Shown here: positions 37,056 to 48,382 of the stretch, in pieces
Position numbering within the stretch: position 1 is the stretch's first letter
Layout of the letters: each line of letters opens with the position of its first letter
DNA from: a virus
Reading direction: 5' to 3' (one strand)
DNA length: 64,000 bases
IMG/VR virus record: IMGVR_UViG_3300008114_000042
Location: 34,865-98,864 of that record
Notes under the pieces: model-generated
Told to the model about the DNA's origin: nothing
Database searches by the model: none
What the model saw: the letters and a program-made list of their open reading frames with translations, nothing else
Translations under genes and position numbers: made by a program

Positions 37056-37105
37056 TTTGTTACTTCCTTTCGTGAGGGACAATCCCTCGTTGTTGTTATA
37101 GTCTA

Positions 37106-37134: not shown

Positions 37135-37288
37135 GAGGAAAATTCATTTTTCCTGCGATATTTTTAGTTAGTCCGTAATCCGTTTCGGGCAGGGTGTCCG
37201 GTTTGACCCAGTTTGGGGGAGGATCGAATGTCCGTTTTGCCCGTTTTGGGTGTCCGAACTGTCCGATTCTCCCCTTTTTGCTACTCTA
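37135..37288 (-). repeat. Leader region with TGTCCG repeats
   Basis: Non-coding. Holds TGTCCGTTTTG at 37229-37239 and three more TGTCCG copies (37188, 37251, 37260) between the two DUF932 promoters. Confidence 0.5.
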
Positions 37289-37317: not shown

Positions 37318-37333
37318 TGTGAGATAGATCACA
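37318..37333 (-). promoter_or_regulatory. CRP/GlxR-type box, 0 bp from -35
   Basis: TGTGA-N6-TCACA perfect palindrome ends; followed immediately by GGGGCGCGGG. Confidence 0.72.
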
Positions 37334-37360
37334 CGGGGCGCGGGTAGGGTTAGGGTACCC

Positions 37361-37567
37361 TTACTCCCTATTCAGTGCAGCCTCAGCATAGAAGTCCTCA
37401 TAGCCCATCATAGGCTCATCAAAGGATGCCTTCATCTCGGCATGGTCCTCGTCTGTGAGGTCTTCCCACATTGTCTCGGGGTACTCATAGGGATCACCGT
37501 AGTAGCCGTACTGCTCATCAGTACCCCAGCCACACGACTCCATCACGAAGTCAAAATCGTCATTCAT
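37361..37567 (-). CDS. Acidic Tyr-rich protein, unknown
   Basis: A 68-residue protein (CGWGTDEQYGYYGDPYEYPE). Strongly acidic; DNA mimicry is possible but unproven. It overlaps the upstream gene by 4 nt. Confidence 0.5.
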   Translation of the reverse strand: MNDDFDFVMESCGWGTDEQYGYYGDPYEYPETMWEDLTDEDHAEMKASFDEPMMGYEDFYAEAALNRE

Positions 37568-37812
37568 CGAACGTACCAGTCCTCATCAGAAATATTGCTA
37601 CGGGTAATGGGGGCCAGCATCTCAAAGCCCCACAGAGCGGTGGTGCGCTCGCCACACACCGGGCAAGGACCATAGGCAACGTTGGTCCAGTCCTCCCCAC
37701 GCTGGTGGATGCCAGCGAAAGGCATGGCGTTGTGGAGGCCACGACCCTCATAGGCGCACTCTACACAGTCGATAGTGGCGGGGCTGTGAACCGCTTCCTT
37801 GGTCTCATTCAT
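37564..37812 (-). CDS. Zinc-binding protein with leaderless start
   Basis: An 82-residue protein with CVECAYEGRG and CPVCGERT, two Cys pairs of a zinc ribbon, and WGFEMLAPITR between ends. ATG 37812 starts 6 nt after the TATAGT -10 box. Unknown function. Confidence 0.6.
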   Translation of the reverse strand: MNETKEAVHSPATIDCVECAYEGRGLHNAMPFAGIHQRGEDWTNVAYGPCPVCGERTTALWGFEMLAPITRSNISDEDWYVR

Positions 37813-37818
37813 AGTTCT

Positions 37819-37847
37819 ACTATAGCATCGATGGGGGCTGTAGTCAA
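37819..37847 (-). promoter_or_regulatory. Leaderless promoter
   Basis: Minus strand TTGACT (37842-37847) and TATAGT (37819-37824), spacer 17 bp containing CAGCCCCC. Confidence 0.8.
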
Positions 37848-37857
37848 GTCCTGAGAG

Positions 37858-37873
37858 TGTGATGTGTAACACA
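37858..37873 (-). promoter_or_regulatory. CRP/GlxR-type box (one mismatch), 10 bp from -35
   Basis: On the plus strand TGTGATGTGTAACACA, one half-site base off consensus; followed by GGGGGCGCGGGG. Confidence 0.5.
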
Positions 37874-37887
37874 CGGGGGCGCGGGGC

Positions 37888-38004
37888 CTACTCGTCCCCG
37901 AAGCCCCACGAGTCAAGGGAATCCTCATCGAAATGACCCCGCATCATCTGCTCAGTGTACCAGCCTTGAGCGTCGAAGCCGTCTGAAAACTCGAAAATAG
38001 CCAT
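37888..38004 (-). CDS. 38-residue acidic protein
   Basis: MAIFEFSDGFDAQGWYTEQM, acidic. GAAAGGGAAA site and promoter upstream. Its stop abuts the GC element and CRP-type box of the next gene. Confidence 0.5.
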   Translation of the reverse strand: MAIFEFSDGFDAQGWYTEQMMRGHFDEDSLDSWGFGDE

Positions 38005-38025
38005 TATTTTCCCTTTCTGTTGACA

Positions 38026-38223
38026 CTACAATACCACATAATTGCTCTGGGAGTCAACTTCTGGTGTTGTGATGTCGGTCACAGGGCGGGTCGCGCCCCG
38101 CAAAAAGTATTTGAGTAGTTTTACATCATACTCAGGATGTTGGTCGAAAGGAAAGAGGGAAAGGTACCTCACATCTTTCGTCCATTCCCCACTATGACCA
38201 GTAGTGAGGAAGTTGAAGGCCAC
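38026..38223 (-). CDS. Possible small protein reading through a regulatory cassette
   Basis: A 65-residue frame from GTG 38223 behind AAGGGG. The first 43 residues (LTTGHSGEWTKDVRYLSLFP) look protein-like; the rest is read from the GC element, CRP-type box and promoter of the next gene. The cassette may have truncated and extended the original gene. Confidence 0.35.
   Translation of the reverse strand: MAFNFLTTGHSGEWTKDVRYLSLFPFDQHPEYDVKLLKYFLRGATRPVTDITTPEVDSQSNYVVL
38028..38057 (-). promoter_or_regulatory. Promoter of the 38004 gene
   Basis: Minus strand TTGACT (38052-38057) and TATTGT (38028-38033), spacer 18 bp. Confidence 0.65.
38068..38083 (-). promoter_or_regulatory. CRP/GlxR-type box, 10 bp from -35
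   Basis: TGTGA-N6-TCACA exact; followed by a GC element (38084-38101). Confidence 0.72.
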
Positions 38224-38249
38224 CTTTATCCCCTTGCTTGGGTGGCATA

Positions 38250-38299
38250 TGGTAAGAGTCTTATCTCTATCTCATAGAGTGGGGTCTTACCGTTTTTTA
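38250..38299 (+). terminator. Plus-strand terminator-like hairpin
   Basis: GGTAAGA and TCTTACC arms enclose CTCTAT-CTC-ATAGAG and are followed by GTTTTTTAATT. The orientation suits a rightward transcript although surrounding genes run leftward, suggesting antisense transcription is stopped here. Confidence 0.4.
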
Positions 38300-38300
38300 A

Positions 38301-38483
38301 TTAGACAGTAACGTTGGCACGGATGCCCCGTGGGAGGGTAGAGAAGATAACGTCGTCATTGACGGTCATCTCCACGATCTTCCGACCGTTGTGCTTGTGG
38401 ATATCTAGAACGGTACCACGGAGGCCCGAACGGGAGGTACGGTAGGTGTCGCCAACCTTGACTGACTTGGGCTTGCTCGGCAT
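38301..38483 (-). CDS. 60-residue KOW/SH3-like basic protein
   Basis: MPSKPKSVKVGDTYRTSRSG, then LRGTVLDIHKHNGRKIVEM: a small beta-barrel pattern with basic residues, likely nucleic-acid-binding. Consensus promoter upstream. Confidence 0.55.
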   Translation of the reverse strand: MPSKPKSVKVGDTYRTSRSGLRGTVLDIHKHNGRKIVEMTVNDDVIFSTLPRGIRANVTV

Positions 38484-38524
38484 ATGTATTCCTTAGTGCT
38501 GTAGTGGGTCTTTCTGATGACTCA

Positions 38525-38553
38525 AGTATACCGGATACCGGCGCTATTGTCAA
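38525..38553 (-). promoter_or_regulatory. Consensus promoter
   Basis: Minus strand TTGACA (38548-38553) and TATACT (38525-38530), spacer 17 bp. No CRP-type box. Confidence 0.82.
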
Positions 38554-38570
38554 GTCACGTTTCGGTAACG

Positions 38571-38786
38571 CTACTCTTCGTAGTCGGGACTATCCAACAC
38601 AATACAGGGAAGCGTATCGGTATCAGATACCTCAATAGACTTAAACTCGGACCACTCATCTAACAGATGAATGATGTACCCGCTGCCGGTGGGAAACATG
38701 GAATTAATGACGTACTCACTGCCACGGATAATTACCCTGTCCCCTACTTCAAGCGAATAGACTTCTATTCTATCAATGACCTTCAT
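38571..38786 (-). CDS. Small beta protein, unknown
   Basis: A 71-residue protein (EVYSLEVGDRVIIRGSEYVI). Started at the ATG of an ATGA overlap. SH3-like in look. Confidence 0.5.
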   Translation of the reverse strand: MKVIDRIEVYSLEVGDRVIIRGSEYVINSMFPTGSGYIIHLLDEWSEFKSIEVSDTDTLPCIVLDSPDYEE

Positions 38787-38965
38787 GCGCACCCCCCAAA
38801 CAACGGGGTATAGAAATAGATGTGAATGTCTAGGGTTGACTTCCAGAGTGAAATCCAGTCCCCAAACTCATCCCCATCGACATAGCACAGGAAGTCGTTA
38901 TCAGTGTAGACGATCCATTTGTCCTCGTCATCATCATAGGGCATTTCATAGACGTGTGCGTTCAT
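38783..38965 (-). CDS. Acidic aromatic protein, unknown
   Basis: A 60-residue protein (MNAHVYEMPYDDDEDKWIVY). Its ATG overlaps the stop of the upstream membrane peptide. Acidic N-terminus. Confidence 0.5.
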   Translation of the reverse strand: MNAHVYEMPYDDDEDKWIVYTDNDFLCYVDGDEFGDWISLWKSTLDIHIYFYTPLFGGCA

Positions 38966-39042
38966 CCGAACCACAGCGCCAAAAAGCCGGTAGCCATGAG
39001 AACGATGTTTTCCAACAGGAAGGGGGGAATTTTAATCTTCAT
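38962..39042 (-). CDS. 26-residue membrane peptide
   Basis: MKIKIPPFLLENIVLMATGF plus ALWFG: one amphipathic/transmembrane segment. Coupled on both sides by overlapping stop/start codons. Confidence 0.45.
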   Translation of the reverse strand: MKIKIPPFLLENIVLMATGFLALWFG

Positions 39043-39287
39043 TACTTATCCCTACTAAAACCGTTGTCGGTCTCATCAATAGTATCTTGGGCAAACCCAA
39101 TGAGGCTTGCCTCAAACTTGCGTGCATGATGAGCACAGAATTGCAAGGGAAGACCCTTCTTGTTTGCCACCCGCACCCATGCTCGCTGAATACAACGGTC
39201 GCAACGGTCCATCAAGGAAAGGACAGGGGCAGGAGGGACAGGCTCATAATCGGCGTTGTCGATAAGAGTCTGAACAGGACTTCCCAT
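39042..39287 (-). CDS. DUF7455-type zinc protein
   Basis: An 81-residue protein with MDRCDRCIQRAWVRVANKKG and LPLQFCAHHARKFEASLIGF. The DRCDRC...VRV...FCxHHARK pattern is the actinobacterial DUF7455 domain. Supports an actinobacterial host. Function unknown. Confidence 0.7.
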   Translation of the reverse strand: MGSPVQTLIDNADYEPVPPAPVLSLMDRCDRCIQRAWVRVANKKGLPLQFCAHHARKFEASLIGFAQDTIDETDNGFSRDK

Positions 39288-39430
39288 TAGATTTCTCCTC
39301 TCAGAATAGCAGCCTTGATATAGTTAAGGTCAGAGGTATTGTCATAGGTATACTCAAGGATTTGATTGAGCACGCTTGCCTCATCAGGAGTAACCATGAG
39401 GGTGGCATAGACAAATTCAGTATTCGGCAT
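39287..39430 (-). CDS. 47-residue protein, unknown
   Basis: MPNTEFVYATLMVTPDEASV, then a helix ending AILRGEI. It overlaps the start of its upstream neighbour's 3' end by 14 nt. Confidence 0.45.
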   Translation of the reverse strand: MPNTEFVYATLMVTPDEASVLNQILEYTYDNTSDLNYIKAAILRGEI

Positions 39431-39551
39431 TACGGTGCTTGGCCTTCCTAGTATACTTGCTCTTATTACGATGGGGCTGGGCAGCATTGGACCGGCGAAG
39501 GTCCTGCCAATACTGCACTTCCTCACGGGTCTTCTTTCTTGTTTTCATCAT
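39417..39551 (-). CDS. 44-residue basic leaderless peptide
   Basis: MMKTRKKTREEVQYWQDLRR and a Lys/Arg-rich tail (HRNKSKYTRKAKHRNAEY). Very basic, so DNA or RNA binding is plausible. ATG 39551 starts 6 nt after the TAAAGT box. Confidence 0.5.
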   Translation of the reverse strand: MMKTRKKTREEVQYWQDLRRSNAAQPHRNKSKYTRKAKHRNAEY

Positions 39552-39557
39552 GGTAAT

Positions 39558-39586
39558 ACTTTACCACACTTTTCGTTGGATGGGAA
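39558..39586 (-). promoter_or_regulatory. Leaderless promoter, weak -35
   Basis: Minus strand TAAAGT (39558-39563) with extended TGG and TTCCCA (39581-39586) as -35, spacer 17 bp; would need activation. Confidence 0.55.
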
Positions 39587-39590
39587 GAGG

Positions 39591-39601
39591 CAAAACGGAC
39601 A
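39591..39601 (+). repeat. CAAAACGGACA motif
   Basis: 11-mer lying 6 bp from the CRP-type box, on its promoter side. Confidence 0.6.
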
Positions 39602-39607
39602 TTGGAG

Positions 39608-39623
39608 TGTGATGATTGTCACA
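39608..39623 (-). promoter_or_regulatory. CRP/GlxR-type box, 21 bp from -35
   Basis: TGTGATGATTGTCACA on the plus strand, exact palindrome ends; GC element at 39629-39639. Confidence 0.72.
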
Positions 39624-39648
39624 TTGGACCGCGCCCCGCCTCAGATTT

Positions 39649-39855
39649 TTACCCTACAGCACTCAACGCATCAGCAATATCATACTTGACATTCTTTAAT
39701 CCGATAGTCACAGTCTCTATGCGATCCTCTGCGTTCTCATTCACAAATGCAAGACTCTCAAGACTGTCAATGATCTTGTTGACCTCATTTGCCGCACGGT
39801 AGAGAGCGTGACGCATAGCAAACTGAGTCTCAGTAAGTTCCTTGTTAGACTTCAC
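39649..39855 (-). CDS. Helical protein, unknown
   Basis: A 68-residue protein, all helical (AANEVNKIIDSLESLAFVNE). Unknown. Confidence 0.5.
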   Translation of the reverse strand: MKSNKELTETQFAMRHALYRAANEVNKIIDSLESLAFVNENAEDRIETVTIGLKNVKYDIADALSAVG

Positions 39856-39864
39856 CGGAAATCA

Positions 39865-40257
39865 CTATTTCCTTTCATCGTTCCAGCGCTGGATGCAACT
39901 CTTGCACCTACGCCTACCATCTACATATTTTGTGTTCTCGTCATTGTATGGGTGCCCCCACTTGCAATGGGTCTTGGCTTGGTTGGCGTGTCGGCCCTTG
40001 GACACCATATCTCCAACGTTGTCAGCAGGAGAGCCTGCTCGCAAGTGCCGTGGATTCACACAGGAACGATTATCACACAGGTGCATAACAACATCGGGCC
40101 ACTCTCCATAAGTCAGGAAATATGAGAGTCTGTGTGCCTTCCAATAGTTGTATTGTCCATACCCGCCGGGATTGACATACCCTGACCACTCCCAACATTC
40201 ATCGGGAGCCCCCATGACTACCCTCGCCCAGAACCGGGCAGGAGCCTTAGAATACAT
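39865..40257 (-). CDS. HNH homing endonuclease
   Basis: A 130-residue protein: [20 protein letters not shown], the His-containing core [40 protein letters not shown] and a closing C-x-C-x-C zinc pair set (CKWGH ... CKSC). This is the HNH_3/NUMOD-type endonuclease also found at 43757. Started at ATG 40257, which overlaps the upstream gene's end by 11 nt. No own promoter is seen. Confidence 0.82.
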
Positions 40258-40387
40258 CTGAAACATCCAGAATCTCAAAGTCCTCAGGAGAAAACTCCTC
40301 ACGACTACGAATGTAGTCTAGGGCAGCATCCCTATTGGGGAAGGACCGCTGAAAGACGTTCAGGTAGTAAACTCTATACTGACTCAT
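40247..40387 (-). CDS. 46-residue protein, unknown
   Basis: [20 protein letters not shown] then helical, like small phage proteins with one helix and a strand. Overlaps both neighbours. Confidence 0.5.
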
Positions 40388-40520
40388 TGTTCTCACTTTC
40401 ATAGTTCATCTTAGAAGGCTTACGACAGTAGGAGCACACCCACTGTCCACTATTGGGGTCAAGTGTCCATCCATCCTTGGCACTATGACCCTTCGTACTA
40501 CCCTCACACCACGCTGTCAT
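40374..40520 (-). CDS. 48-residue zinc peptide
   Basis: Contains MTAWCEGSTKGHSAKDGWTL and CSYCRKP; one Cys/His site likely. ATGA overlap with the upstream stop. Confidence 0.5.
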   Translation of the reverse strand: MTAWCEGSTKGHSAKDGWTLDPNSGQWVCSYCRKPSKMNYESENNESV

Positions 40521-40858
40521 CGGCTTTGCAGCCTTGTAGTGATAGTATCAATGAGAGCGGAACAGCGCTGCTCAATTTCTTTGAGGTACTCCACCGCCTC
40601 CTCATCTTCACTGCACGTTCCCATGAGGTCCACAGCATTTTCCATACGGTCGTTCAGGGTGTCTGCAATGAAGTGCCAGACATCCTCCCGAAACTGAATA
40701 CTCACGGGCAAGGCGGGGGACCTTCCAATAATCTCGTAGTCATCAAATGTGGTGCCGTCGCCAGCCAACTCAACACGGCTGTTAATCTTCTCAACAGCAT
40801 CCTCCCATGAGCGGGTAGAGAATACAGGGCGACCTAGGAAGTGAACCTCATAACTCAT
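40517..40858 (-). CDS. 113-residue protein, unknown
   Basis: N-terminal strands (MSYEVHFLGRPVFSTRSWED) and a C-terminal helical half. ATGA coupling upstream. Unknown. Confidence 0.5.
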   Translation of the reverse strand: MSYEVHFLGRPVFSTRSWEDAVEKINSRVELAGDGTTFDDYEIIGRSPALPVSIQFREDVWHFIADTLNDRMENAVDLMGTCSEDEEAVEYLKEIEQRCSALIDTITTRLQSR

Positions 40859-41010
40859 GCGAGTGTCCCCACAAACTCTACGTCAACCAACTTGGTTGCA
40901 ATGGAAGGATGCACACCCTTGATAACGTCAGCCACGTCATGCAGGTCGTTCTCTTGGATAATGGTTCGATCCTGATTGTTAAATCGGTAAGTGATAACCC
41001 AGACGTTCAT
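40855..41010 (-). CDS. 51-residue protein, unknown
   Basis: MNVWVITYRFNNQDRTIIQE and an alpha/beta rest. First gene of this operon, behind CGAAAGG and the motif promoter at 41040. Confidence 0.5.
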   Translation of the reverse strand: MNVWVITYRFNNQDRTIIQENDLHDVADVIKGVHPSIATKLVDVEFVGTLA

Positions 41011-41039
41011 TGTGTAACCTTTCGTTGTTTCTTGGTTTT

Positions 41040-41063
41040 ATTCTAGCAGGGGGGTCTGACATT
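41040..41063 (-). promoter_or_regulatory. Motif promoter: TAGAAT with conserved spacer
   Basis: Minus strand ATGTCAGACCCCCCTGC directly before TAGAAT (41040-41045). The same spacer occurs at four other sites. No -35. Confidence 0.65.
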
Positions 41064-41082
41064 GGAGGCTTGGAAATGCTAT

Positions 41083-41093
41083 CAAATCGGACA
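41083..41093 (+). repeat. CAAATCGGACA motif
   Basis: 11-mer upstream of the 41040 promoter, without a CRP-type box nearby. Confidence 0.55.
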
Positions 41094-41119
41094 GGTTGTA
41101 TAACGAGATGGTAACAGAG

Positions 41120-41148
41120 TTATCCACAGATTTCCCAAGTTATCCACA
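41120..41148 (+). promoter_or_regulatory. Pair of perfect DnaA-type boxes
   Basis: TTATCCACA at 41120-41128 and 41140-41148, exactly 20 bp apart in the same orientation, in a non-coding gap. Confidence 0.6.
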
Positions 41149-41184
41149 GGTGAAAAGTTGTTTAGTACCAACAACTTTCGGCCC

Positions 41185-41475
41185 TCACCATGGACTACGC
41201 CCATAGCCAATAACCGTTATATCCCAACGCTTTTGGACTGCCCCATTCTCAGCCATGAATGCATCAATGAGTTCATCAGGCACATAGCCATAGACAGAAG
41301 TGCCACCAATGCTACCGTCGTGGTAGTCAGCGAACGGCTCAATGGGATCGCATACCCATTTGCCATTGAGGAAGAAAGCAATCTCACTAGAGATACCCTT
41401 GCGGCACATATGGTATTCGCTGTTCTGCACACTGATCTCATCAGCCTGCGGGTGAACGATAGTGTAAGTAGGCAT
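41185..41475 (-). CDS. 96-residue protein, unknown
   Basis: MPTYTIVHPQADEISVQNSE with mixed alpha/beta character and two Cys. One base after the upstream gene's stop. Unknown. Confidence 0.5.
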   Translation of the reverse strand: MPTYTIVHPQADEISVQNSEYHMCRKGISSEIAFFLNGKWVCDPIEPFADYHDGSIGGTSVYGYVPDELIDAFMAENGAVQKRWDITVIGYGRSPW

Positions 41476-41652
41476 TTATGCTCCAATCGCATTGTGAATG
41501 ACAGCGCCATTCTCTACGGAAATGGTCAGGGTATTGACGTAGGTATCGCCATTCCAAATCTCAATGTCGATAGTCTGGTCAGTATCGAATGACCACACCT
41601 TAGCGGTGATGGTATCGACTACTGCCTCTGCGAAATCATGCTTGGTAATCAT
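41476..41652 (-). CDS. 58-residue protein, unknown
   Basis: MITKHDFAEAVVDTITAKVW, then a beta hairpin end. GAAAC leader; shares the operon with 41185. Unknown. Confidence 0.5.
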   Translation of the reverse strand: MITKHDFAEAVVDTITAKVWSFDTDQTIDIEIWNGDTYVNTLTISVENGAVIHNAIGA

Positions 41653-41664
41653 TGTGTTTCCTTT

Positions 41665-41880
41665 CTACCAGCGTCCGAATGACTTGACAGGCTCACGATC
41701 CCCAAGAGCGGAGCGGAGTTCGATAGAGCCGCAATCCCGCATGGAGACTGGCGTACCGTCAATCTCAACCCAGAAACGACCCTGACGGTGCTTAGGCATC
41801 CAAGTGACGATGCCCTCCATTCCACCAGAAGTGAAAACGTGGTCGCCAACCATGAGGTCGGTAGTGCAAATGCGGATCAT
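41665..41880 (-). CDS. SH3-like small protein
   Basis: A 71-residue protein (MIRICTTDLMVGDHVFTSGG) with a barrel-like strand pattern. Motif promoter at 41914 and AAGAAAGG leader. Unknown. Confidence 0.5.
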   Translation of the reverse strand: MIRICTTDLMVGDHVFTSGGMEGIVTWMPKHRQGRFWVEIDGTPVSMRDCGSIELRSALGDREPVKSFGRW

Positions 41881-41913
41881 TTTCTTACCTTTCTTGTTTC
41901 TTTCTATACCCTC

Positions 41914-41937
41914 ATCCTAGCAGAGGGGTCTGACATT
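41914..41937 (-). promoter_or_regulatory. Motif promoter: TAGGAT with conserved spacer
   Basis: Minus strand TGTCAGACCCCTCTGC directly before TAGGAT (41914-41919). Confidence 0.6.
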
Positions 41938-41992
41938 TAGTTCGGGGGAATCGGGTGATATCGGACACCCAATCAGAACCGTTACCTAACCG

Positions 41993-42076
41993 TTACTTTC
42001 GGTTGAGGTAGCCCTTGTGAGGGCAATCACGACGGTCATGGCGACTGTCGCAACCAGAGCAGAGAATCTGAGTCAT
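41993..42076 (-). CDS. 27-residue zinc-finger peptide
   Basis: MTQILCSGCDSRHDRRDCPH and a basic tail: CxxC...H...CxxH, a compact zinc site. GAAAGGAAAG precedes the ATG. Confidence 0.5.
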   Translation of the reverse strand: MTQILCSGCDSRHDRRDCPHKGYLNRK

Positions 42077-42102
42077 TGTCTTTCCTTTCTTTCTATGCCA
42101 TC

Positions 42103-42126
42103 AGTCTAGCAGGGGGGTCTGACATT
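42103..42126 (-). promoter_or_regulatory. Motif promoter: TAGACT with conserved spacer
   Basis: Minus strand ATGTCAGACCCCCCTGC directly before TAGACT (42103-42108). Confidence 0.6.
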
Positions 42127-42145
42127 CTTGGCCTCAGAATGTGTG

Positions 42146-42156
42146 CAAAACGGACA
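42146..42156 (+). repeat. CAAAACGGACA motif
   Basis: 11-mer between the motif promoter and the CRP-type box at 42175. Confidence 0.6.
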
Positions 42157-42174
42157 CACGCAGAAAAAAGTTTA

Positions 42175-42190
42175 TGTGATGAATCTCACA
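42175..42190 (-). promoter_or_regulatory. CRP/GlxR-type box, 43 bp from the -35 slot
   Basis: TGTGATGAATCTCACA on the plus strand, exact; GC element follows at 42195-42207. Confidence 0.7.
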
Positions 42191-42235
42191 GGACGGGCCG
42201 CGCCCCGACCCTCAGGAGTTGTTTAATCCCAACAC

Positions 42236-42427
42236 TTATTCTCCCCAGAAGTCGTCAAGCAGTACCCGGCAGTCGTTGCACAGGTGTCGTTCGGTGCGAG
42301 TGTTGGCAACAATTCCAAGCGCAACAGTCTCTACCTGCATCCAGCCAACAGCATCGCAACTGTTGGGACTCACTGTTGTCTCGCACACGTTGCAAGTGAT
42401 CCAGTCTATACGCTCATGCCACCTCAC
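42236..42427 (-). CDS. Zinc-binding protein
   Basis: A 63-residue protein from GTG 42427 (GTGA overlap, AGAGGAAGAGG upstream). CNVCET near the start and HLCNDC near the end make a zinc ribbon. Unknown. Confidence 0.55.
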   Translation of the reverse strand: MRWHERIDWITCNVCETTVSPNSCDAVGWMQVETVALGIVANTRTERHLCNDCRVLLDDFWGE

Positions 42428-42579
42428 AAAATATCCTCTTCCTCTTCGCACTCACCTTCAATAGTCAGGTCGGGGTACTCATAGCCTTCACCGAGGTAGT
42501 AGCAGTAGTAGTCGAATGCTGATTCGCAGAATGCGGTCTCAACCAAAACCCCATCACGCTTGCTAACGATGCTATGCAT
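42424..42579 (-). CDS. 51-residue acidic protein
   Basis: MHSIVSKRDGVLVETAFCES, a Tyr-rich middle and an acidic tail (GECEEEEDIL). Unknown. Confidence 0.5.
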   Translation of the reverse strand: MHSIVSKRDGVLVETAFCESAFDYYCYYLGEGYEYPDLTIEGECEEEEDIL

Positions 42580-42581
42580 GA

Positions 42582-42842
42582 CTAGAACGGTGCCTTCCAG
42601 TATTCCTTGCCGTCTACGACAACGTAGTCAGCGTCCTCAATGGGCATGAGTGGCTTAGTCTTGGTCGGCTCATCAATGAGAGTAGTGAAGTGCTTGACGT
42701 TGGCGGTAGGGACATAGATGATGTCCATATCCTTATTGTCTACCTCCCAAGAGATGTAGGCAGCCTTGACGATCAGGCTATCCTCCACAACGTGAGCATA
42801 GACGCCTGCGGTACCGTCCTGAAAGAAAATCTGAATACGCAT
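42582..42842 (-). CDS. 86-residue protein, unknown
   Basis: MRIQIFFQDGTAGVYAHVVE, beta-rich. Started at ATG 42842; the longer frame lacks support. Unknown. Confidence 0.5.
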   Translation of the reverse strand: MRIQIFFQDGTAGVYAHVVEDSLIVKAAYISWEVDNKDMDIIYVPTANVKHFTTLIDEPTKTKPLMPIEDADYVVVDGKEYWKAPF

Positions 42843-42853
42843 TGTGTGAATCC

Positions 42854-43063
42854 TTACTTGTGAGAAGAGCAGTGAGCGTGCCCATGCGAGCACTCGAAAT
42901 AACCGAAGTCGATATCCTCATCCTCAAGCATGAGGGAGGCATAGACGTTTTCCTCTTCCTGACGGGCGAGGACGTATGAACATTCATTGTCCATATACTC
43001 CCATGAAGAGCCACAGCAGCAGCCGCCCTCATTGAAGTCAAAGTGATGAGAAATGTTAGACAT
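42854..43063 (-). CDS. Cys/His-rich acidic protein
   Basis: A 69-residue protein with GGCCCGSSWEYMDNEC and a C-terminal CSHGHAHCSSH, a probable metal site. Overlaps the upstream gene by 8 nt. Confidence 0.55.
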   Translation of the reverse strand: MSNISHHFDFNEGGCCCGSSWEYMDNECSYVLARQEEENVYASLMLEDEDIDFGYFECSHGHAHCSSHK

Positions 43064-43286
43064 TAGCGTCCATCCAATCCCACACGTCAGCGATGACGTG
43101 CGTGTTGCGAGTGAGTGAAGAGCAAGTACCCATGTAGGTTGCAGAGAAGCGGCGGGACTCCTCAACGTGATCGGCGTAAACCTCAACGTCATACTCCCCA
43201 TCAGAGTACGGGCCGAACACAAAAAGCGTGAACGGCAGCCGACCGAGAGCGGTGTCGTGATAGATATGGAAGGTTGGGAGGGTCAT
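43056..43286 (-). CDS. 76-residue protein, unknown
   Basis: MTLPTFHIYHDTALGRLPFT, alpha/beta. First gene behind the 43317 motif promoter, with CGAAAGG. Unknown. Confidence 0.5.
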   Translation of the reverse strand: MTLPTFHIYHDTALGRLPFTLFVFGPYSDGEYDVEVYADHVEESRRFSATYMGTCSSLTRNTHVIADVWDWMDANV

Positions 43287-43316
43287 TGTATAGCCTTTCG
43301 TTTGTTTCTTAGTTTC

Positions 43317-43340
43317 ATTGTAGCAGGGGGGTCTGACATT
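43317..43340 (-). promoter_or_regulatory. Motif promoter: TACAAT with conserved spacer
   Basis: Minus strand ATGTCAGACCCCCCTGC directly before TACAAT (43317-43322). Confidence 0.65.
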
Positions 43341-43358
43341 CAGACAGGCGAATGTCCG

Positions 43359-43550
43359 TTATGTCGCATTTCGCCTAGTGTGACAAGAATCACAATGGGG
43401 GTCTGACAGTCGGAACTTGTACGACCCATGGCGGGGACGGACAATGAAAGTAAAGGTAGTGCCATACATGGTGAATGACTCCACACGGTACTGAGTATGC
43501 TCACGCCCATGGCGGCTAGATGCCTTGAGGACACGGTAGTTCTTACGCAT
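43359..43550 (-). CDS. Basic 63-residue protein overlapping a CRP-type box
   Basis: MRKNYRVLKASSRHGREHTQ then beta strands. The last codons run through the CRP-type box at 43379, as with the 38026 frame. Unknown. Confidence 0.45.
   Translation of the reverse strand: MRKNYRVLKASSRHGREHTQYRVESFTMYGTTFTFIVRPRHGSYKFRLSDPHCDSCHTRRNAT
43379..43394 (-). promoter_or_regulatory. CRP/GlxR-type box, 33 bp from the -35 slot
   Basis: TGTGACAAGAATCACA on the plus strand, exact. Followed by GGGGGTCTGACAG, a partial copy of the spacer motif. Confidence 0.65.
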
Positions 43551-43710
43551 TACCGTCCATCCCCCACATCTGCTCCCAATAGTCCTCATCCTCGAAGTCA
43601 TCCCAAGCCTCACGGCTCTGAATGATGAGTTCGCACTCAGGCAGATCGAAGATATCAATGTCTGTGGTGATGCGACCACAGGCGCTCTTGACTGTGACGA
43701 AGGTTGACAT
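43543..43710 (-). CDS. 55-residue acidic protein
   Basis: MSTFVTVKSACGRITTDIDI, then an acidic tail. Overlaps the previous gene by 8 nt. AGGAATG leader. Unknown. Confidence 0.5.
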   Translation of the reverse strand: MSTFVTVKSACGRITTDIDIFDLPECELIIQSREAWDDFEDEDYWEQMWGMDGNA

Positions 43711-43733
43711 TCCTTGTCCTTTCTCTTGATCGA

Positions 43734-43757
43734 AGTCTAGCAGAGGGGTCTGACAGT
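43734..43757 (-). promoter_or_regulatory. Motif promoter: TAGACT with conserved spacer
   Basis: Minus strand CTGTCAGACCCCTCTGC directly before TAGACT (43734-43739). It overlaps the HNH 3' end. Confidence 0.6.
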
Positions 43758-44155
43758 CACCGTGACCGATGGGCACGATTGCGTTCATTCTTGCATAGGC
43801 GACAGGTCTTGTCCCCACGCTTGTTGTGATACCAGTTCTCAGGCATCCATTCATGGCCCCGCACACAATGGGTCTTGTTCTGCCATGCAGCACGGCCACG
43901 GGTGATCATGTCGGCGGTATTGCTCAGATTGGACCCCTCCTGCAAGTGACTAGGGCGAACGCATCCACGATTGTCGCAGGTATGACGAACAAGGGTAGGC
44001 ATCTCCCCATAGTAGAGAGCATAGACAAGCCTATGCGCTCTATAGGTTTCGCCATTCATCTTGATCCTTCCATATCCTGAAACAAACTTAGATCCAGTCC
44101 ACTCCCAGCAATCGCCAGAGGTGTCTACCTTGTCCAGAATGGTGCTAATGTCCAT
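43757..44155 (-). CDS. HNH homing endonuclease, leaderless
   Basis: A 132-residue protein: CWEWTGSKFVSGYGRIKMNG, LVRHTCDNRGCVRPSHLQEG, NLSNTADMITRGRAAWQNK and a zinc set (CVRGHEW ... CRLC). Same type as the 39865 gene. ATG 44155 begins 7 nt after its own TATAAT. Confidence 0.85.
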   Translation of the reverse strand: MDISTILDKVDTSGDCWEWTGSKFVSGYGRIKMNGETYRAHRLVYALYYGEMPTLVRHTCDNRGCVRPSHLQEGSNLSNTADMITRGRAAWQNKTHCVRGHEWMPENWYHNKRGDKTCRLCKNERNRAHRSR

Positions 44156-44162
44156 AGTGACC

Positions 44163-44168
44163 ATTATA
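44163..44168 (-). promoter_or_regulatory. Leaderless promoter of the HNH gene
   Basis: Minus strand TGGTATAAT; ATG 7 nt downstream. Confidence 0.65.
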
Positions 44169-44175
44169 CCATCCT

Positions 44176-44334
44176 TTAGACAAGTTCGGGCACAAGCGAA
44201 AGAAGACTGCCCTCCTCGCCCAATGTTTCTACGTTTGCAACCCTGCCATAGAAACACACATGGTCAGTAGGGTCACCAGCGGTAACCACACGAACAGACT
44301 TACCAGAGGTAAGATGGACCAAGTAAACGAACAT
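44176..44334 (-). CDS. 52-residue protein, unknown
   Basis: MFVYLVHLTSGKSVRVVTAG, beta-rich. Extended -10 TGGTACCCT at 44359-44364 and an AAAGAAAGG site lie upstream. Unknown. Confidence 0.5.
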   Translation of the reverse strand: MFVYLVHLTSGKSVRVVTAGDPTDHVCFYGRVANVETLGEEGSLLSLVPELV

Positions 44335-44403
44335 TGTCTAACCTTTCTTTCTACCCTTAGGGTACCACAGGTAGGTGCCAGCCCCTATTGAAGATTTGAT
44401 GAG

Positions 44404-44475
44404 CGGAACCAACGGGGATCGAACCCGTGTTACCACCGTGACAGGGTGGCGTGTTAACCTCTACACTATGATTCC
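44404..44475 (-). tRNA. tRNA-Asp (GUC)
   Basis: Canonical; anticodon stem CCACC / GGTGG with loop CTGTCAC, G discriminator, T-loop TTCGATC. Confidence 0.88.
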
Positions 44476-44479
44476 TTGG

Positions 44480-44551
44480 CTGGCATGGGAGGATTCGAAC
44501 CTCCAACCTTTCGATTAACAGTCGAACGCACTGCCGTTGTGCTACATGCCA
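44480..44551 (-). tRNA. tRNA-Asn (GUU)
   Basis: Acceptor TGGCATG / CATGCCA, anticodon stem TTCGA / TCGAA with loop CTGTTAA, T-loop TTCGAAT. Confidence 0.88.
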
Positions 44552-44557
44552 CAGAGT

Positions 44558-44627
44558 TGGGGTACATGGATTCGAACCATGAATGACAACGTATCAGATT
44601 GTAGTGATGACCTTTTCACTATACCCC
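44558..44627 (-). tRNA. tRNA-Ile (GAU)
   Basis: Acceptor GGGGTAT / GTACCCC, anticodon stem ACAAT / GTTGT with loop CTGATAC, T-loop TTCGAAT. D-arm short but present. Confidence 0.8.
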
Positions 44628-44633
44628 ATGGAG

Positions 44634-44705
44634 AGCCTAGAGAAGGAATCGAACCCTCAACCAACGCATTACAAGTGCGCCGTTCTACCATTGAACTACC
44701 TAGGC
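44634..44705 (-). tRNA. tRNA-Thr (UGU)
   Basis: Acceptor GCCTAGG / TCTAGGC, anticodon loop CTTGTAA, T-loop TTCGATT. Confidence 0.87.
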
Positions 44706-44710
44706 AAGAG

Positions 44711-44781
44711 TGGAGATACAGGGATTTGAACCCCGAACGATTGCTTGCAAAGCAACTGTGATACCTTTTCACCATATCCCC
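44711..44781 (-). tRNA. tRNA-Ala (UGC)
   Basis: Acceptor GGGGATA / TATCTCC, anticodon stem GTTGC / GCAAT with loop TTTGCAA, T-loop TTCAAAT. Confidence 0.85.
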
Positions 44782-44798
44782 GTCGTCTGGGCCGCTAG

Positions 44799-44869
44799 TG
44801 GGGGCACAGGGAATCGAACCCCGATCTGCTGATTAAGAGTCAGCGGTTTTACCGTTAGACTATACCCCC
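44799..44869 (-). tRNA. tRNA-Lys (CUU)
   Basis: Acceptor GGGGGTA / TGCCCCC, anticodon stem GCTGA / TCAGC with loop CTCTTAA, T-loop TTCGATT. First tRNA of the leftward cluster. Confidence 0.87.
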
Positions 44870-44879
44870 GAAGTGTGTG

Positions 44880-45300
44880 TGGTAGGAATATTCTCAGGCT
44901 TCCCTACCTTCCCGGTGACTGGCCTATCCCTTGCGGGTGCTACTGAGAGCCGGGGGTTCAAGGGGATTACTATAGGCATTGGTGGCGAGAACCTCATTTA
45001 ACATTGAACGTGTCACTATTTGTACCTACTACCCTTGTGTTTTGGGGTTTCGGGGACTAGGCTAACCCGGTCTAACCGGAGCGTTCGTTCCACCCTTCTG
45101 AGTACCATTGCCACTACGGCTTTCCTCAGTTTTCCCAAGTTTGTGAGCGGATTCTTACCGCTTTCAGATTTCGGTCTGTGCGTGCCTAGCGTTTCTAGTT
45201 TCGACTGGCGCATCCTGTGCTTTCCAATTCCCAACTAGTGCTTCGGGGCTTTCAGACTCCCAATCTGCGCTTCCTAGCGCTTCTGGATACTCTCTATTTT
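44880..45300 (-). ncRNA. Candidate structured RNA with repeated hairpins upstream of tRNAs
   Basis: About 420 nt without a convincing gene, placed between a promoter (45312) and the tRNA cluster. Read on the minus strand, 45110-45290 holds five or six degenerate units, each a short stem-loop followed by GAAAGC or GAAACGC (for example CAGATTGGGAGTCTG-AAAGC and CAGACCGAAATCTG-AAAGC). A 72-codon frame at 45016-45234 has no SD and starts at TTG, so I do not call it. Large structured RNAs next to phage tRNAs are known (GOLLD, ROOL); identity is not shown. Confidence 0.5.
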
Positions 45301-45311
45301 CTTATGTCTTA

Positions 45312-45340
45312 AGAGTACCACACTTTGGTCTGGTTTGCAA
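45312..45340 (-). promoter_or_regulatory. Promoter P1 of the RNA/tRNA transcript
   Basis: Minus strand TTGCAA (45335-45340) and TACTCT (45312-45317), spacer 17 bp, extended TGG. The start region ATAAGAAAATAGAGAG is identical to that of P2. Confidence 0.65.
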
Positions 45341-45360
45341 GTCCTGAGGCTTATTTGCTG

Positions 45361-45376
45361 TGTGAGGCTCATCACA
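45361..45376 (-). promoter_or_regulatory. CRP/GlxR-type box, 20 bp from P1 -35
   Basis: TGTGAGGCTCATCACA on the plus strand, exact palindrome ends. Confidence 0.65.
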
Positions 45377-45445
45377 TTTTCTGTGCTTACTTGCTCACGC
45401 AGGCTCATCCTTGACCTTGCTCACTCTCTATTTTCTTATACCTTA

Positions 45446-45474
45446 AGGTTACCACGGATGGGGGCAGAAAGCAA
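45446..45474 (-). promoter_or_regulatory. Promoter P2 of the RNA/tRNA transcript
   Basis: Minus strand TTGCTT (45469-45474) and TAACCT (45446-45451), spacer 17 bp with CTGCCCCC. P1 and P2 share about 20 bp around the start. Confidence 0.6.
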
Positions 45475-45488
45475 GTTGAAAATGCATA

Positions 45489-45499
45489 CAAAACGGACA
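45489..45499 (+). repeat. CAAAACGGACA motif
   Basis: 11-mer, 6 bp from the CRP-type box at 45506. Confidence 0.6.
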
Positions 45500-45505
45500 A
45501 CTTTA

Positions 45506-45521
45506 TGTGATGTGTGTCACA
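45506..45521 (-). promoter_or_regulatory. CRP/GlxR-type box, 31 bp from P2 -35
   Basis: TGTGATGTGTGTCACA on the plus strand, exact; followed by an AACGGG / CCCGTT hairpin at the 3' end of the 45539 gene. Confidence 0.72.
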
Positions 45522-45538
45522 ACGGGTCGCGGCCCCCG

Positions 45539-45691
45539 TTAATATTCCTGACTATACACCTGCTCAGCAATATCCTTGTATTCAGCCTTCATTAGATACC
45601 CCTGCTCAATAAGCATATCCAGAGCGCTCAGTACCATTTCCCATGATCCACGAGGCATCTCTACTCTAACCACAATATCTTCCTTCTCCAT
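45539..45691 (-). CDS. 50-residue helical protein
   Basis: MEKEDIVVRVEMPRGSWEMV then helices (ALDMLIEQGYLMKAEYKDIA). Overlaps the upstream gene by 26 nt. Unknown. Confidence 0.5.
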   Translation of the reverse strand: MEKEDIVVRVEMPRGSWEMVLSALDMLIEQGYLMKAEYKDIAEQVYSQEY

Positions 45692-45950
45692 ACCCTTGCG
45701 GAATCAGCGTAACGAAACCATCGTTGGCATCGTCATTAGTAAAAACAGCGTTGATAAAGCGTAGGCCGCATGACTCGTCATACCAGTCTACGATATCCTT
45801 GAGGTTGGGAGCATATGTCTCATAGTCCCATTCCTCCATTTGCCTAACCTGCTCATCATCCATAGACAGGTAGATTTTATGACAACCGTCAAAATGCATA
45901 CCCTTCGCATTACGGAGCATTTGCTCTACCAGCCACCAGCGGTCATCCAT
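45666..45950 (-). CDS. 94-residue protein, unknown
   Basis: MDDRWWLVEQMLRNAKGMHF, mixed alpha/beta, acidic. Starts within the end of the 45943 gene. Unknown. Confidence 0.5.
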   Translation of the reverse strand: MDDRWWLVEQMLRNAKGMHFDGCHKIYLSMDDEQVRQMEEWDYETYAPNLKDIVDWYDESCGLRFINAVFTNDDANDGFVTLIPQGYGEGRYCG

Positions 45951-46104
45951 TGTATTCCTCCATTGCCTGAGTGTATGAGAAGTCTATTACCTCATACTCT
46001 CTAATAGCCCCATCATTGCTATTGTATGTCTGAATGAATAGTGGGCGGCAGTCAAGGCATCCCGCTACTCCACACCCGCCGATTAGTGTGCGTTCGATAG
46101 TCAT
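45943..46104 (-). CDS. 53-residue Cys-containing protein
   Basis: MTIERTLIGGCGVAGCLDCR: three Cys near the N-terminus suggest a metal site. Coupled to the 46104 gene by overlapping stop/start. Unknown. Confidence 0.5.
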   Translation of the reverse strand: MTIERTLIGGCGVAGCLDCRPLFIQTYNSNDGAIREYEVIDFSYTQAMEEYNG

Positions 46105-46304
46105 TAGTAGTACCGTCCTTCATTCATCATTTCATCGGTAGGGTAGTGGTAAATAGGATGGGCGCAAAGCCATGCAGACATGCCATGCTCGCAGATATCC
46201 TCCTCAGGATCGGGAGGATATTCCATATTATCCATTTGATATGCCCCCAATAGTCCACGGTAGTCATTATCTACAGACTCACAAGGGAATTCGTCAGTAA
46301 TCAT
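46104..46304 (-). CDS. 66-residue acidic protein
   Basis: MITDEFPCESVDNDYRGLLG with Cys/His residues later (CEHGMSAWLCAH). ATG 46304 overlaps the previous TAA. Possibly metal-binding. Confidence 0.5.
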   Translation of the reverse strand: MITDEFPCESVDNDYRGLLGAYQMDNMEYPPDPEEDICEHGMSAWLCAHPIYHYPTDEMMNEGRYY

Positions 46305-46486
46305 TAGAATACACTCCCACACACGAGACAGATAGCCTTATACCTAGGTTCGATATCCTCGCAGCCGATACACGGCTCCCACGGTAGGTCGGGGAAATAC
46401 TTATAGACAAATTCTTCGACAGCCCTCTGGCCCTTATCTTGATAGATAGCGTAGCAAACGTCATCCAGACCGATAGTGTCATCCAT
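46304..46486 (-). CDS. 60-residue zinc protein
   Basis: MDDTIGLDDVCYAIYQDKGQ, then CIGCEDIEPRYKAICLVCG: two Cys pairs of a zinc ribbon. Unknown. Confidence 0.55.
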   Translation of the reverse strand: MDDTIGLDDVCYAIYQDKGQRAVEEFVYKYFPDLPWEPCIGCEDIEPRYKAICLVCGSVF

Positions 46487-46497
46487 GATTATTTTCC

Positions 46498-47244
46498 TTA
46501 TTTCTTTGATCGTGAGAATGAGATATTGGCCTTATTATCAACGCATAGACGGCAGACACTACAGGCGCTACCCTCGGTGCTAATAAGGGGAATTTGCTTA
46601 CGCTGCTCAGGACAGATAGCACCGGGCCTGCCGGTAATATCCTTGACAGCCGCCTGACTTTCTGCAAAAGTCTCAGCAACGAAAGCGACCTTAATTCCAT
46701 AAGTACGGTAGAGCATATCTGCTACCGGCTTATTATTGGGGTCGCCACTAAAGTAAAGCGACAGATTAGGCAGATTAGCCTTGTGCAGCCTGACGGCAGC
46801 ATTAGCATTACGGGTATAGACCCAGAATTGGATATGCGGGTACAGGATGATAATGTTAATCCATGCCTCAATATAGGTTTCAGAGAAAAAGTCCCCGTCC
46901 CAATGGATGCGATAAATACGCTCAGAGCCCTTTTTCTCAGACTTAGTATCGAATTCCCAGATAAGGGCGTTCAGCATATCGAAAGTGTCGATAAGGTTGG
47001 CATCCTTAAGGGCATTGTAATTGTGGAGCATGGCAGCCCCGACACCCTTAAAAAGGTTTTCCAATTTGCCAGCGTAGCAAATTAGTTCGCAATATTCGGT
47101 AGCACCGACGCAGGAATAGTCAATTCCATTGGCAAGGCCCATAGTATTTGAGAAAGCGGCCTGCTTTCCATTTTTAGTAACGCAGGAAGCCACTTTCCGG
47201 TCATTAGAAGCGGCTAGGACGGGGAGCATTGTTTTCGTAGTCAT
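46498..47244 (-). CDS. Gp88-like Cys-rich phage protein
   Basis: A 248-residue protein. An early TATEYCELICYAG-like motif (GATEYCELICYAGKL), HWDGDFFSETYIEAW, FWVYTRNANAAVRL and a C-terminal cluster CPEQRKQ...CSVCRLC match the GP88 family of actinophages. The Cys pattern could hold an iron-sulfur cluster. The ATG is 7 nt after the TATAGT box, so it is leaderless. Function unknown. Confidence 0.7.
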   Translation of the reverse strand: MTTKTMLPVLAASNDRKVASCVTKNGKQAAFSNTMGLANGIDYSCVGATEYCELICYAGKLENLFKGVGAAMLHNYNALKDANLIDTFDMLNALIWEFDTKSEKKGSERIYRIHWDGDFFSETYIEAWINIIILYPHIQFWVYTRNANAAVRLHKANLPNLSLYFSGDPNNKPVADMLYRTYGIKVAFVAETFAESQAAVKDITGRPGAICPEQRKQIPLISTEGSACSVCRLCVDNKANISFSRSKK

Positions 47245-47251
47245 AGGTGTA

Positions 47252-47280
47252 ACTATACAGGATAATATGGGTATGGTCAA
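47252..47280 (-). promoter_or_regulatory. Leaderless promoter of the Gp88-like gene
   Basis: Minus strand TTGACC (47275-47280) and TATAGT (47252-47257), spacer 17 bp. Confidence 0.75.
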
Positions 47281-47284
47281 GGGG

Positions 47285-47295
47285 CAAAACGGACA
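47285..47295 (+). repeat. CAAAACGGACA motif
   Basis: 11-mer, 6 bp from the CRP-type box at 47302. Confidence 0.6.
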
Positions 47296-47301
47296 TTGGC
47301 G

Positions 47302-47317
47302 TGTGAGTAATATCACA
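47302..47317 (-). promoter_or_regulatory. CRP/GlxR-type box, 21 bp from -35
   Basis: TGTGAGTAATATCACA on the plus strand, exact, including the central TA; GC element GGGGGCGCGGCCCCGG abuts it. Confidence 0.75.
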
Positions 47318-47341
47318 GGGGGCGCGGCCCCGGCAGGGTAG

Positions 47342-47590
47342 TCAGGAGGGTAGTGTAGCAAGGTAGCAGGTAACAAGGTCATAGGGTACAAGGGTGTAGA
47401 ACACAGAGTGTCCATGGTCCCTTACCACTACAGCCTCATGGTCAGCGAAGAAGGGCACAAGGGTAGCGCTAGCACGGTCATGCTTAAAGAACACAACGGT
47501 ACAGTTGCGAGGGTAGTTGTATACCTGAAACGACGTATGCTCATCCCCCTCTGGGAGGTAGTGCTGTACCCTACCTACCCTAGTAGTCAT
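47342..47590 (-). CDS. 82-residue protein, unknown
   Basis: MTTRVGRVQHYLPEGDEHTS with a beta-rich core. Started at ATG 47590, which overlaps the upstream gene by 11 nt. Unknown. Confidence 0.5.
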   Translation of the reverse strand: MTTRVGRVQHYLPEGDEHTSFQVYNYPRNCTVVFFKHDRASATLVPFFADHEAVVVRDHGHSVFYTLVPYDLVTCYLATLPS

Positions 47591-47855
47591 ATCCACCACA
47601 GCACCACATGCAGCCTTCCTTGTGGTCATCCTCATCCTGTACCTTCTCTTCTTCAATGTCAAGGTAGTCCATGATTCCATCAGTAATGGAGTAGTACCTA
47701 TCCTTGCGATGACGGATTTCGTTAGTCCATTCTCCATCACCCTTGTACCGTCGCCATGCTACGTCGGTATGCCAGTTAATGTGTGCCTCACCATGCTTGT
47801 CCTTGACGTATGCTATCTGCACACGGGCAGGGCGAGTCTTATCAGTCTTGCTCAT
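47580..47855 (-). CDS. 91-residue protein with C-terminal CxxCC
   Basis: MSKTDKTRPARVQIAYVKDK, beta domain, then acidic helix and GCMWCCGGYDY at the end. Unknown. Confidence 0.5.
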   Translation of the reverse strand: MSKTDKTRPARVQIAYVKDKHGEAHINWHTDVAWRRYKGDGEWTNEIRHRKDRYYSITDGIMDYLDIEEEKVQDEDDHKEGCMWCCGGYDY

Positions 47856-47856
47856 A

Positions 47857-48321
47857 CTAGTCCTCCCATGAGGGTACTACGGTAGTGGGGATACCATGCT
47901 CTGCCCAGAGGGCCAGCACAGCAGGGTTGTCATCAATGGCATGGATCACATCGTACTCCTGCTGTATGCGGTGGAGTATGTCACTCTTGACATCGTAGTC
48001 AGGGCGACCGTCCTTGTCCCCTCGCATGAGCATGAGGTCTGACGGTACACCATGAAGGGCGAGCCACCATGCTGTTGCATGACGGTACATAGCACGCCTA
48101 GCAGTAACGATGATGATGGTAGTACCTAGCATGTGTGCCCTATGCACCTGATCCACCACATGGGCATGAGCAGGCACGTTGACGCTCTCACTATGAAAGG
48201 CATGGAAGTCCTTGTGCCACCCCTTAGGCTTGGGGGTAGGGGGAAGGATGTAGTGCCTGATACCACTCACATCGGCAAGGGTACCGTCCATATCAACGAT
48301 CATAGCCTGTCTCTTACTCAT
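47857..48321 (-). CDS. HAD phosphatase, PNK 3'-phosphatase-like
   Basis: A 154-residue HAD hydrolase: MIVDMDGTLAD (nucleophile Asp), IIIVTARRAMYR (motif II), a Lys-containing region and IHAIDDNPAVLALW (motif IV). This matches the phosphatase half of T4 polynucleotide kinase; no kinase half is present. It may heal 3' ends of nicked RNA such as cleaved tRNA. Leaderless start. Confidence 0.8.
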   Translation of the reverse strand: MSKRQAMIVDMDGTLADVSGIRHYILPPTPKPKGWHKDFHAFHSESVNVPAHAHVVDQVHRAHMLGTTIIIVTARRAMYRHATAWWLALHGVPSDLMLMRGDKDGRPDYDVKSDILHRIQQEYDVIHAIDDNPAVLALWAEHGIPTTVVPSWED

Positions 48322-48327
48322 AGTCTA

Positions 48328-48356
48328 AGACTACAGCATGGAGAGGGATAAGTCAA
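48328..48356 (-). promoter_or_regulatory. Leaderless promoter of the phosphatase gene
   Basis: Minus strand TTGACT (48351-48356) and TAGTCT (48328-48333), spacer 17 bp; ATG 6 nt downstream. Confidence 0.75.
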
Positions 48357-48366
48357 GTTGTGATGG

Positions 48367-48382
48367 TGTGATGATTGTCACA
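48367..48382 (-). promoter_or_regulatory. CRP/GlxR-type box, 10 bp from -35
   Basis: TGTGATGATTGTCACA on the plus strand, identical to the box at 39608. Confidence 0.72.

Follow-up and report, generated by a model that had tools for sequence, protein, structure and literature searches.

Helically phased Crp/GlxR-type boxes in a leftward gene block of an actinophage lineage suggest control by a host regulator

The IMG/VR virus record IMGVR_UViG_3300008114_000042 comprises 98,864 bp, and the window analysed here is the stretch of 64,000 nucleotides from position 34865 to 98864 of that record; all coordinates are those of the window. It contains a block of leftward operons in which ten copies of the palindrome TGTGA-N6-TCACA, here called boxes, lie upstream of promoters at distances that follow the turn of the DNA helix. 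Judged from the sequence, it is likely that the Crp/GlxR protein of the host binds these phased boxes and helps RNA polymerase at the leftward operons, and that the host activator PafBC probably joins it in much of the lineage. The boxes thus suggest that these phages turn on a gene block through a sensor belonging to the host.

Nine exact copies of the palindrome occur in the window, at the very positions named in an earlier note on this DNA, against 0.15 expected from dinucleotide shuffles, and none of 100 shuffles reaches nine. The single-mismatch box at 37858, also re-found, is counted as the tenth; two more one-mismatch matches, at 42016 and 49577, were left uncounted because chance predicts that many (3.07 expected at up to one mismatch). 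Confinement to the leftward block, as claimed in that note, holds for the whole record, where no TGTGA-N6-TCACA box is found outside the block. All ten boxes precede a promoter on the minus strand, and are listed with the gap in bp between the box and the -10 hexamer:

37318-37333, minus strand, Crp/GlxR-type box; -10 TATACT at 37294-37289, gap 23; TTGACA directly next to the box; DUF932 gene downstream
37858-37873, minus strand, Crp/GlxR-type box with one mismatch; -10 TATAGT at 37824-37819, gap 33; ATG 6 nt past the -10 (leaderless type)
38068-38083, minus strand, Crp/GlxR-type box; -10 TATTGT at 38033-38028, gap 34
39608-39623, minus strand, Crp/GlxR-type box; -10 TAAAGT at 39563-39558, gap 44; ATG 6 nt past the -10; no TTG-type -35
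42175-42190, minus strand, Crp/GlxR-type box; TGTCRG-N10-TANNNT (PafBC-type) promoter at 42124-42103, gap 66
43379-43394, minus strand, Crp/GlxR-type box; TGTCRG-N10-TANNNT (PafBC-type) promoter at 43338-43317, gap 56
45361-45376, minus strand, Crp/GlxR-type box; -10 TACTCT at 45317-45312, gap 43; second of two tandem boxed promoters before a six-tRNA array
45506-45521, minus strand, Crp/GlxR-type box; -10 TAACCT at 45451-45446, gap 54; first boxed promoter before the tRNA array
47302-47317, minus strand, Crp/GlxR-type box; TTGACC-17-TATAGT with the -10 at 47257-47252, gap 44; ATG 7 nt past the -10; upstream of the GP88 gene
48367-48382, minus strand, Crp/GlxR-type box; -10 TAGTCT at 48333-48328, gap 33; ATG 6 nt past the -10; upstream of a gene for a PNKP-type HAD phosphatase

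The ten gaps, in coordinate order 23, 33, 34, 44, 66, 56, 43, 54, 44 and 33 bp, share one phase at 10.5 bp (R = 0.91, Rayleigh p about 2.5e-4), which bears out the helical spacing claimed in the earlier note. The earlier note had instead measured to a -35 hexamer or slot, giving 0, 10, 10, 10, 20, 21, 21, 31, 33 and 43 bp. All these values are reproduced as the gap to the -10 minus 23, that is the hexamer and a 17-bp spacer, but no TTGACA-like -35 is present at 42175 and 43379, and no TTG-type -35 at 39608. Since the promoters at 42175 and 43379 have TGTCAG-N10-TANNNT in its place, the -10 is the better point of reference.

Relatives were fetched as viral contigs with the DUF932 protein encoded at the end of the block, and the box was not used in the search. 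One of them (L056) is a near-identical phage, and most of the others, at 64-67% identity, have 2-8 boxes in the fetched stretch, while whole records of relatives have 3-9 boxes clustered within some 4-11 kb. Dozens of relatives carry boxes, and these lie in the same block as in the window. A composite pattern, a box followed by TGTCCGWTTTG, is present in at least 118 stretches of viral contigs. The viral loci from L056 on contain 550 matches to TGTGA-N6-TCACA, compared with 0-6 when the spacer is changed and 0-7 when the half sites are permuted, where the loci found by the composite pattern hold at least one box by construction and those fetched by DUF932 do not. Genome contigs gave nine scattered matches to the composite pattern, and only one contig resembles one of these phages; it is 110 kb long, from an uncultured cyanobacterium bin (L202, CAINGU010000031.1), has four boxes and 14 TGTCRG promoters, and is most likely a misbinned actinophage. 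On the DUF932 tree the boxed phages form two deep groups, with the boxless L057 and L058 as sister to the phage of the window and the boxless Streptomyces phages elsewhere, a topology that forces at least two changes. By this tree the box trait is old, and was lost or gained at least twice. This spread across a phage lineage had been missed in the earlier note.

The phasing recurs in a larger set of promoters, defined by fixed patterns. Promoters of the form TTGAC-N16-18-TANNNT have gaps that peak at 33, 44, 54 and 64 bp (41 non-redundant, R 0.72), and those of the form TGTCRG-N10-TANNNT share the peaks from 44 on, at 44, 54 and 64 bp (178 non-redundant, R 0.68), with a best-fitting period of about 10.5 bp. 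A common phase to the -10 in two promoter types with differing upstream elements points to contact with the polymerase. Boxes in phase make up 365 of the 409 having a strict promoter, against a chance fraction of 0.38. With one promoter for each downstream protein family, the phase is kept across 60 families (R 0.56, p about 5e-9). The families were clustered on the downstream protein; an earlier redundancy control, by single linkage on k-mers, was rejected as it placed 402 of 411 rows in one family, because promoter motifs are shared. Inside one gene family the spacings commonly differ by 10 and 11 bp, also by 1 bp, and a smaller set differs by 5-6 bp, largely from a class with a gap of 49 bp. 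Four promoters of the window (37858, 39608, 47302 and 48367) have an ATG 6-7 nt past the -10, as is typical of leaderless transcripts, and this gives the start site by an independent route; gaps from box to ATG at leaderless starts are phased too (22 promoters, R 0.71). Computed from the gaps, the box centres lie at about -43.5, -53.5, -64, -75 and -85 relative to the start. That the boxes arose by chance, from duplicated cassettes or from base composition has next to no probability: boxes 39608 and 48367 do share an identical 16 bp, but no shuffle reaches nine, neither permuted half sites nor other spacers show enrichment, and the phasing persists with one promoter per family, so that the shuffle, half-site, spacer and family controls together refute it.

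The consensus of GlxR is TGTGANNTANNTCACA, and GlxR mostly activates (PMC4254451). The boxes agree with this consensus both in the palindrome and in the AT-rich centre, the centre positions being A or T in about 86% of the non-redundant boxes, which fits its NNTANN (PMC4254451). WhiB, treated as an actinophage marker (PMC10202952), was detected in 23 of 32 records, 21 of them with a match over the cut-off, this virus included, and together with the kinship to Streptomyces phages points to actinobacterial hosts. The cyclic nucleotide-binding domain PF00027 had no match, and the Crp-type helix-turn-helix domain PF13545 none over the cut-off, in 19 phage records that may be incomplete, with the positive controls detected; adenylate cyclase (PF00211) was sought in the phage records and not found. 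As no Crp-type protein was found in the 19 records, the binder should be the Crp/GlxR of the host, that is, the regulator should be supplied by the host and not by the phage. Phages related to mycobacteriophage L5 have repeated operators scattered through the genome, and many genes of the block belong to no known family, so a phage-encoded protein other than Crp could bind the palindrome in the manner of L5-type repressor sites. This is improbable, as the site fits the actinobacterial Crp consensus with its AT-rich centre, is phased to the polymerase, and does not occur in the late and structural regions.

Variation among the boxes bears on whether they act in DNA or in RNA. Changes in one arm that break the pairing number 399, against 56 paired changes in both arms, which indicates a protein operator rather than an RNA stem. 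The palindromes might also be RNA hairpins for processing or termination at operon ends, the more so as a G+C-rich inverted repeat stands just upstream of most boxes of the window, but the helically phased distance to the -10 is a second point against such a role; the hairpin was rejected on the 399 to 56 count and is very improbable. The proposal of the earlier note, that the phage ties a whole block to the host's cyclic AMP (cAMP)-sensing regulator through phased sites, gains support from the chance, spacer and half-site controls, the recurrence in relatives collected independently of the box, the phasing by family, the search of 19 phage records that found no Crp-type protein and this operator-like variation.

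The direction of the effect can be approached from position. For CRP of Mycobacterium tuberculosis upstream sites are associated with activation and those at the start with repression (PMC4117774), and the phased positions upstream of the promoters therefore favour activation. The same boxes might instead let host Crp repress or delay the block, for example until cAMP drops during infection. Crp is able to act as a repressor from sites near the start (PMC4117774), and the 37318 box directly adjoins the -35 element. Nearly all boxes, however, are upstream of the core promoter and keep their phase as far out as about 85 bp from the start. Simple occlusion is not to be expected at such positions, nor would it depend on phase, so repression is the less likely effect, though it is the most probable of the alternatives considered here. 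With activation, the boxes would be operators for a cAMP receptor protein of Crp/GlxR type, which when bound would keep to one face of the helix relative to RNA polymerase, an integral number of turns upstream of it, and would assist it at the leftward operons of this actinophage, and the block of small genes and the tRNA array would track the cAMP state of the host. Across much of the lineage these promoters also have a PafBC-type -26 element, and a second host activator, responsive to single-stranded DNA (ssDNA), probably works with Crp.

Several points weigh against activation by a host Crp. The closest non-identical relatives, L057 and L058 (DUF932 75% identical), are without boxes, so such phages can manage without them, and the Streptomyces relatives hold 0-1 boxes. 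The class with gap 49 (14 of the 178 TGTCRG promoters) is half a turn out of phase. The Rayleigh p values take promoters as independent beyond the family clustering. Class I CRP promoters of E. coli, such as lac, likewise place the activator an integral number of turns ahead of the core promoter with a period of about 10.5 bp, but the gap at lac is 41, and the phage phase with its peaks at 44, 54 and 64 lies about 3 bp further upstream; the phages moreover use centres at about -53.5 (gap 33), a poor position for E. coli CRP. This shift may reflect a different geometry of Crp and polymerase in actinobacteria, and counts against carrying the E. coli model over unchanged. Finally, the whole case is drawn from sequence, and from it we infer the identity of the binder, activation as the effect and the timing in infection. 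The gap-49 promoters are found in L065, L081, L089, L090, L093, L098 and L099, and are concentrated in two protein families.

Many boxed promoters of the relatives match the PafBC promoter class, a second layer by sequence that the earlier note had missed. The fetched viral loci contain 941 cases of TGTCRG followed by TANNNT after exactly 10 nt, compared with 12-177 for other spacings, and this equals the spacing of the published LexA-independent DNA-damage promoter, tTGTCRgtg-8nt-TannnT (PMC5656591). PafBC, which ssDNA activates, inserts between promoter DNA and domain 4 of SigA and binds a -26 motif (PMC11804915). The 'tg' right after TGTCRG is partly kept in the phage promoters (T 58%, G 37%). 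The window has five such promoters against 1.02 expected, a number reached by none of 100 shuffles; two are boxed, and three have no exact box:

41040-41061, minus strand, PafBC-type promoter
41914-41935, minus strand, PafBC-type promoter
43734-43755, minus strand, PafBC-type promoter

Relatives without Crp boxes (G003, G014, G015) or with one (G016, G017) still have 10-19 such promoters, indicating that the PafBC-type layer is the wider one, and L058 has 12 TGTCRG promoters though boxless. The pattern is enriched in three actinobacterial genomes (19 vs 4, 22 vs 0 and 38 vs 6), and none of 395 sampled genomes of the class had the joint promoter of box and TGTCRG. A search for WYL proteins in 19 phage records gave none, so PafBC would be that of the host. 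That this widespread lineage of uncultured actinophages drives the block through two host activators together, cAMP-bound Crp in phase with the polymerase and ssDNA-sensing PafBC at the core promoter, without a phage-made activator, is a tentative reading, to which we give somewhat less than an even chance. PafBC-type promoters without Crp boxes are also seen in G029, and in G016 about 18 follow in succession, roughly every 200 bp.

The genes of the block that could be assigned, with the tRNA array and a further promoter, are:

36051-37061, minus strand, gene for a DUF932 protein (PF06067, phrog_1221), behind the 37318 box at the end of the block; its product was the query for relatives
37134-37106, minus strand, second TTGACA-17-TATACT promoter, without a box, near the DUF932 gene
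44403-44869, minus strand, six-tRNA array, downstream of the tandem boxed promoters (45506 and 45361)
46498-47415, minus strand, open reading frame holding the GP88 gene (PF17338); the ATG 7 nt past the -10 falls within this longest-frame call
47857-48321, minus strand, gene for a PNKP-type HAD phosphatase (PF25109, phrog_415), behind the 48367 box

The remaining boxed genes encode many small proteins of unknown function, and two HNH genes lie within the block. A long interval with no clear genes (44870-45450, minus strand) separates the tandem boxed promoters from the tRNA array; it contains repeated words like GAAAGC and CGCTAGG, and is possibly an RNA leader. The G+C-rich inverted repeats, of the GGGGCGCG..CCC type, lie just upstream on the minus strand of boxes 37858, 38068, 39608, 42175, 45506 and 47302, and close the preceding operon right before the box; they have no T-run and are thus not standard terminators. 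Scans of the window for generic sigma-70 promoters (13 found, 15.1 in shuffles) and for terminators (9 found, 9.0 in shuffles) were uninformative.

By its sequence TGTCCGWTTTG is a further putative operator, widespread in relatives, with 8 copies in the window against 0.04 expected, and at three boxes it is placed exactly 6 bp downstream:

39591-39601, 41083-41093, 42146-42156, 45489-45499 and 47285-47295, minus strand, TGTCCGWTTTG
32952-32962, 32976-32986 and 37229-37239, plus strand, TGTCCGWTTTG

The interval between box and promoter in relatives contains more repeated motifs, namely GCGACACGCC, TTGAGCGTCTCA and GTGAGCCTAGCGAATAAATG.

The GlxR and Crp regulons of Corynebacterium and Mycobacterium have the same 16-bp palindrome and an upstream placement that goes with activation (PMC4254451, PMC4117774), but here the sites are on phages, dense in one block, strictly phased, and many are joined to TGTCRG promoters. 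These promoters fit the consensus of the PafBC-dependent, RecA-independent promoters of the actinobacterial DNA-damage response (PMC5656591), except that they are predicted on phages, where most genomes in the lineage have 5-19 of them, often with a Crp box ahead. Judged by DnaE, DUF932 and a protein annotated as ribonucleotide reductase, the nearest isolated kin are the Stanwilliamsviridae, with the Streptomyces phages Karimac, BillNye and Coruscant, in which DUF932 also sits in a block of small genes, whereas boxes number 0-1 and TGTCRG-N10 promoters are not above the control. Phage promoters that read a host stress regulator are described for GIL01 and LexA of its host, where LexA is a repressor (PMC4551915); an activator and a block of many promoters are proposed here instead.

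Crp-dependent promoters are textbook knowledge, and the open-access literature searched holds no earlier report of a conserved phage-wide Crp regulon. If Crp acts as proposed, host nutrition, through cAMP, would gate a gene block in actinobacterial viruses, and the phages would be a natural catalogue of several hundred spacings between Crp and polymerase, able to define the geometry of Crp activation in the phylum. Signal integration could be tested directly at the joint Crp/PafBC promoter, and if both activators are used, expression of the block would track the carbon and cAMP state of the host together with the ssDNA made by infection.

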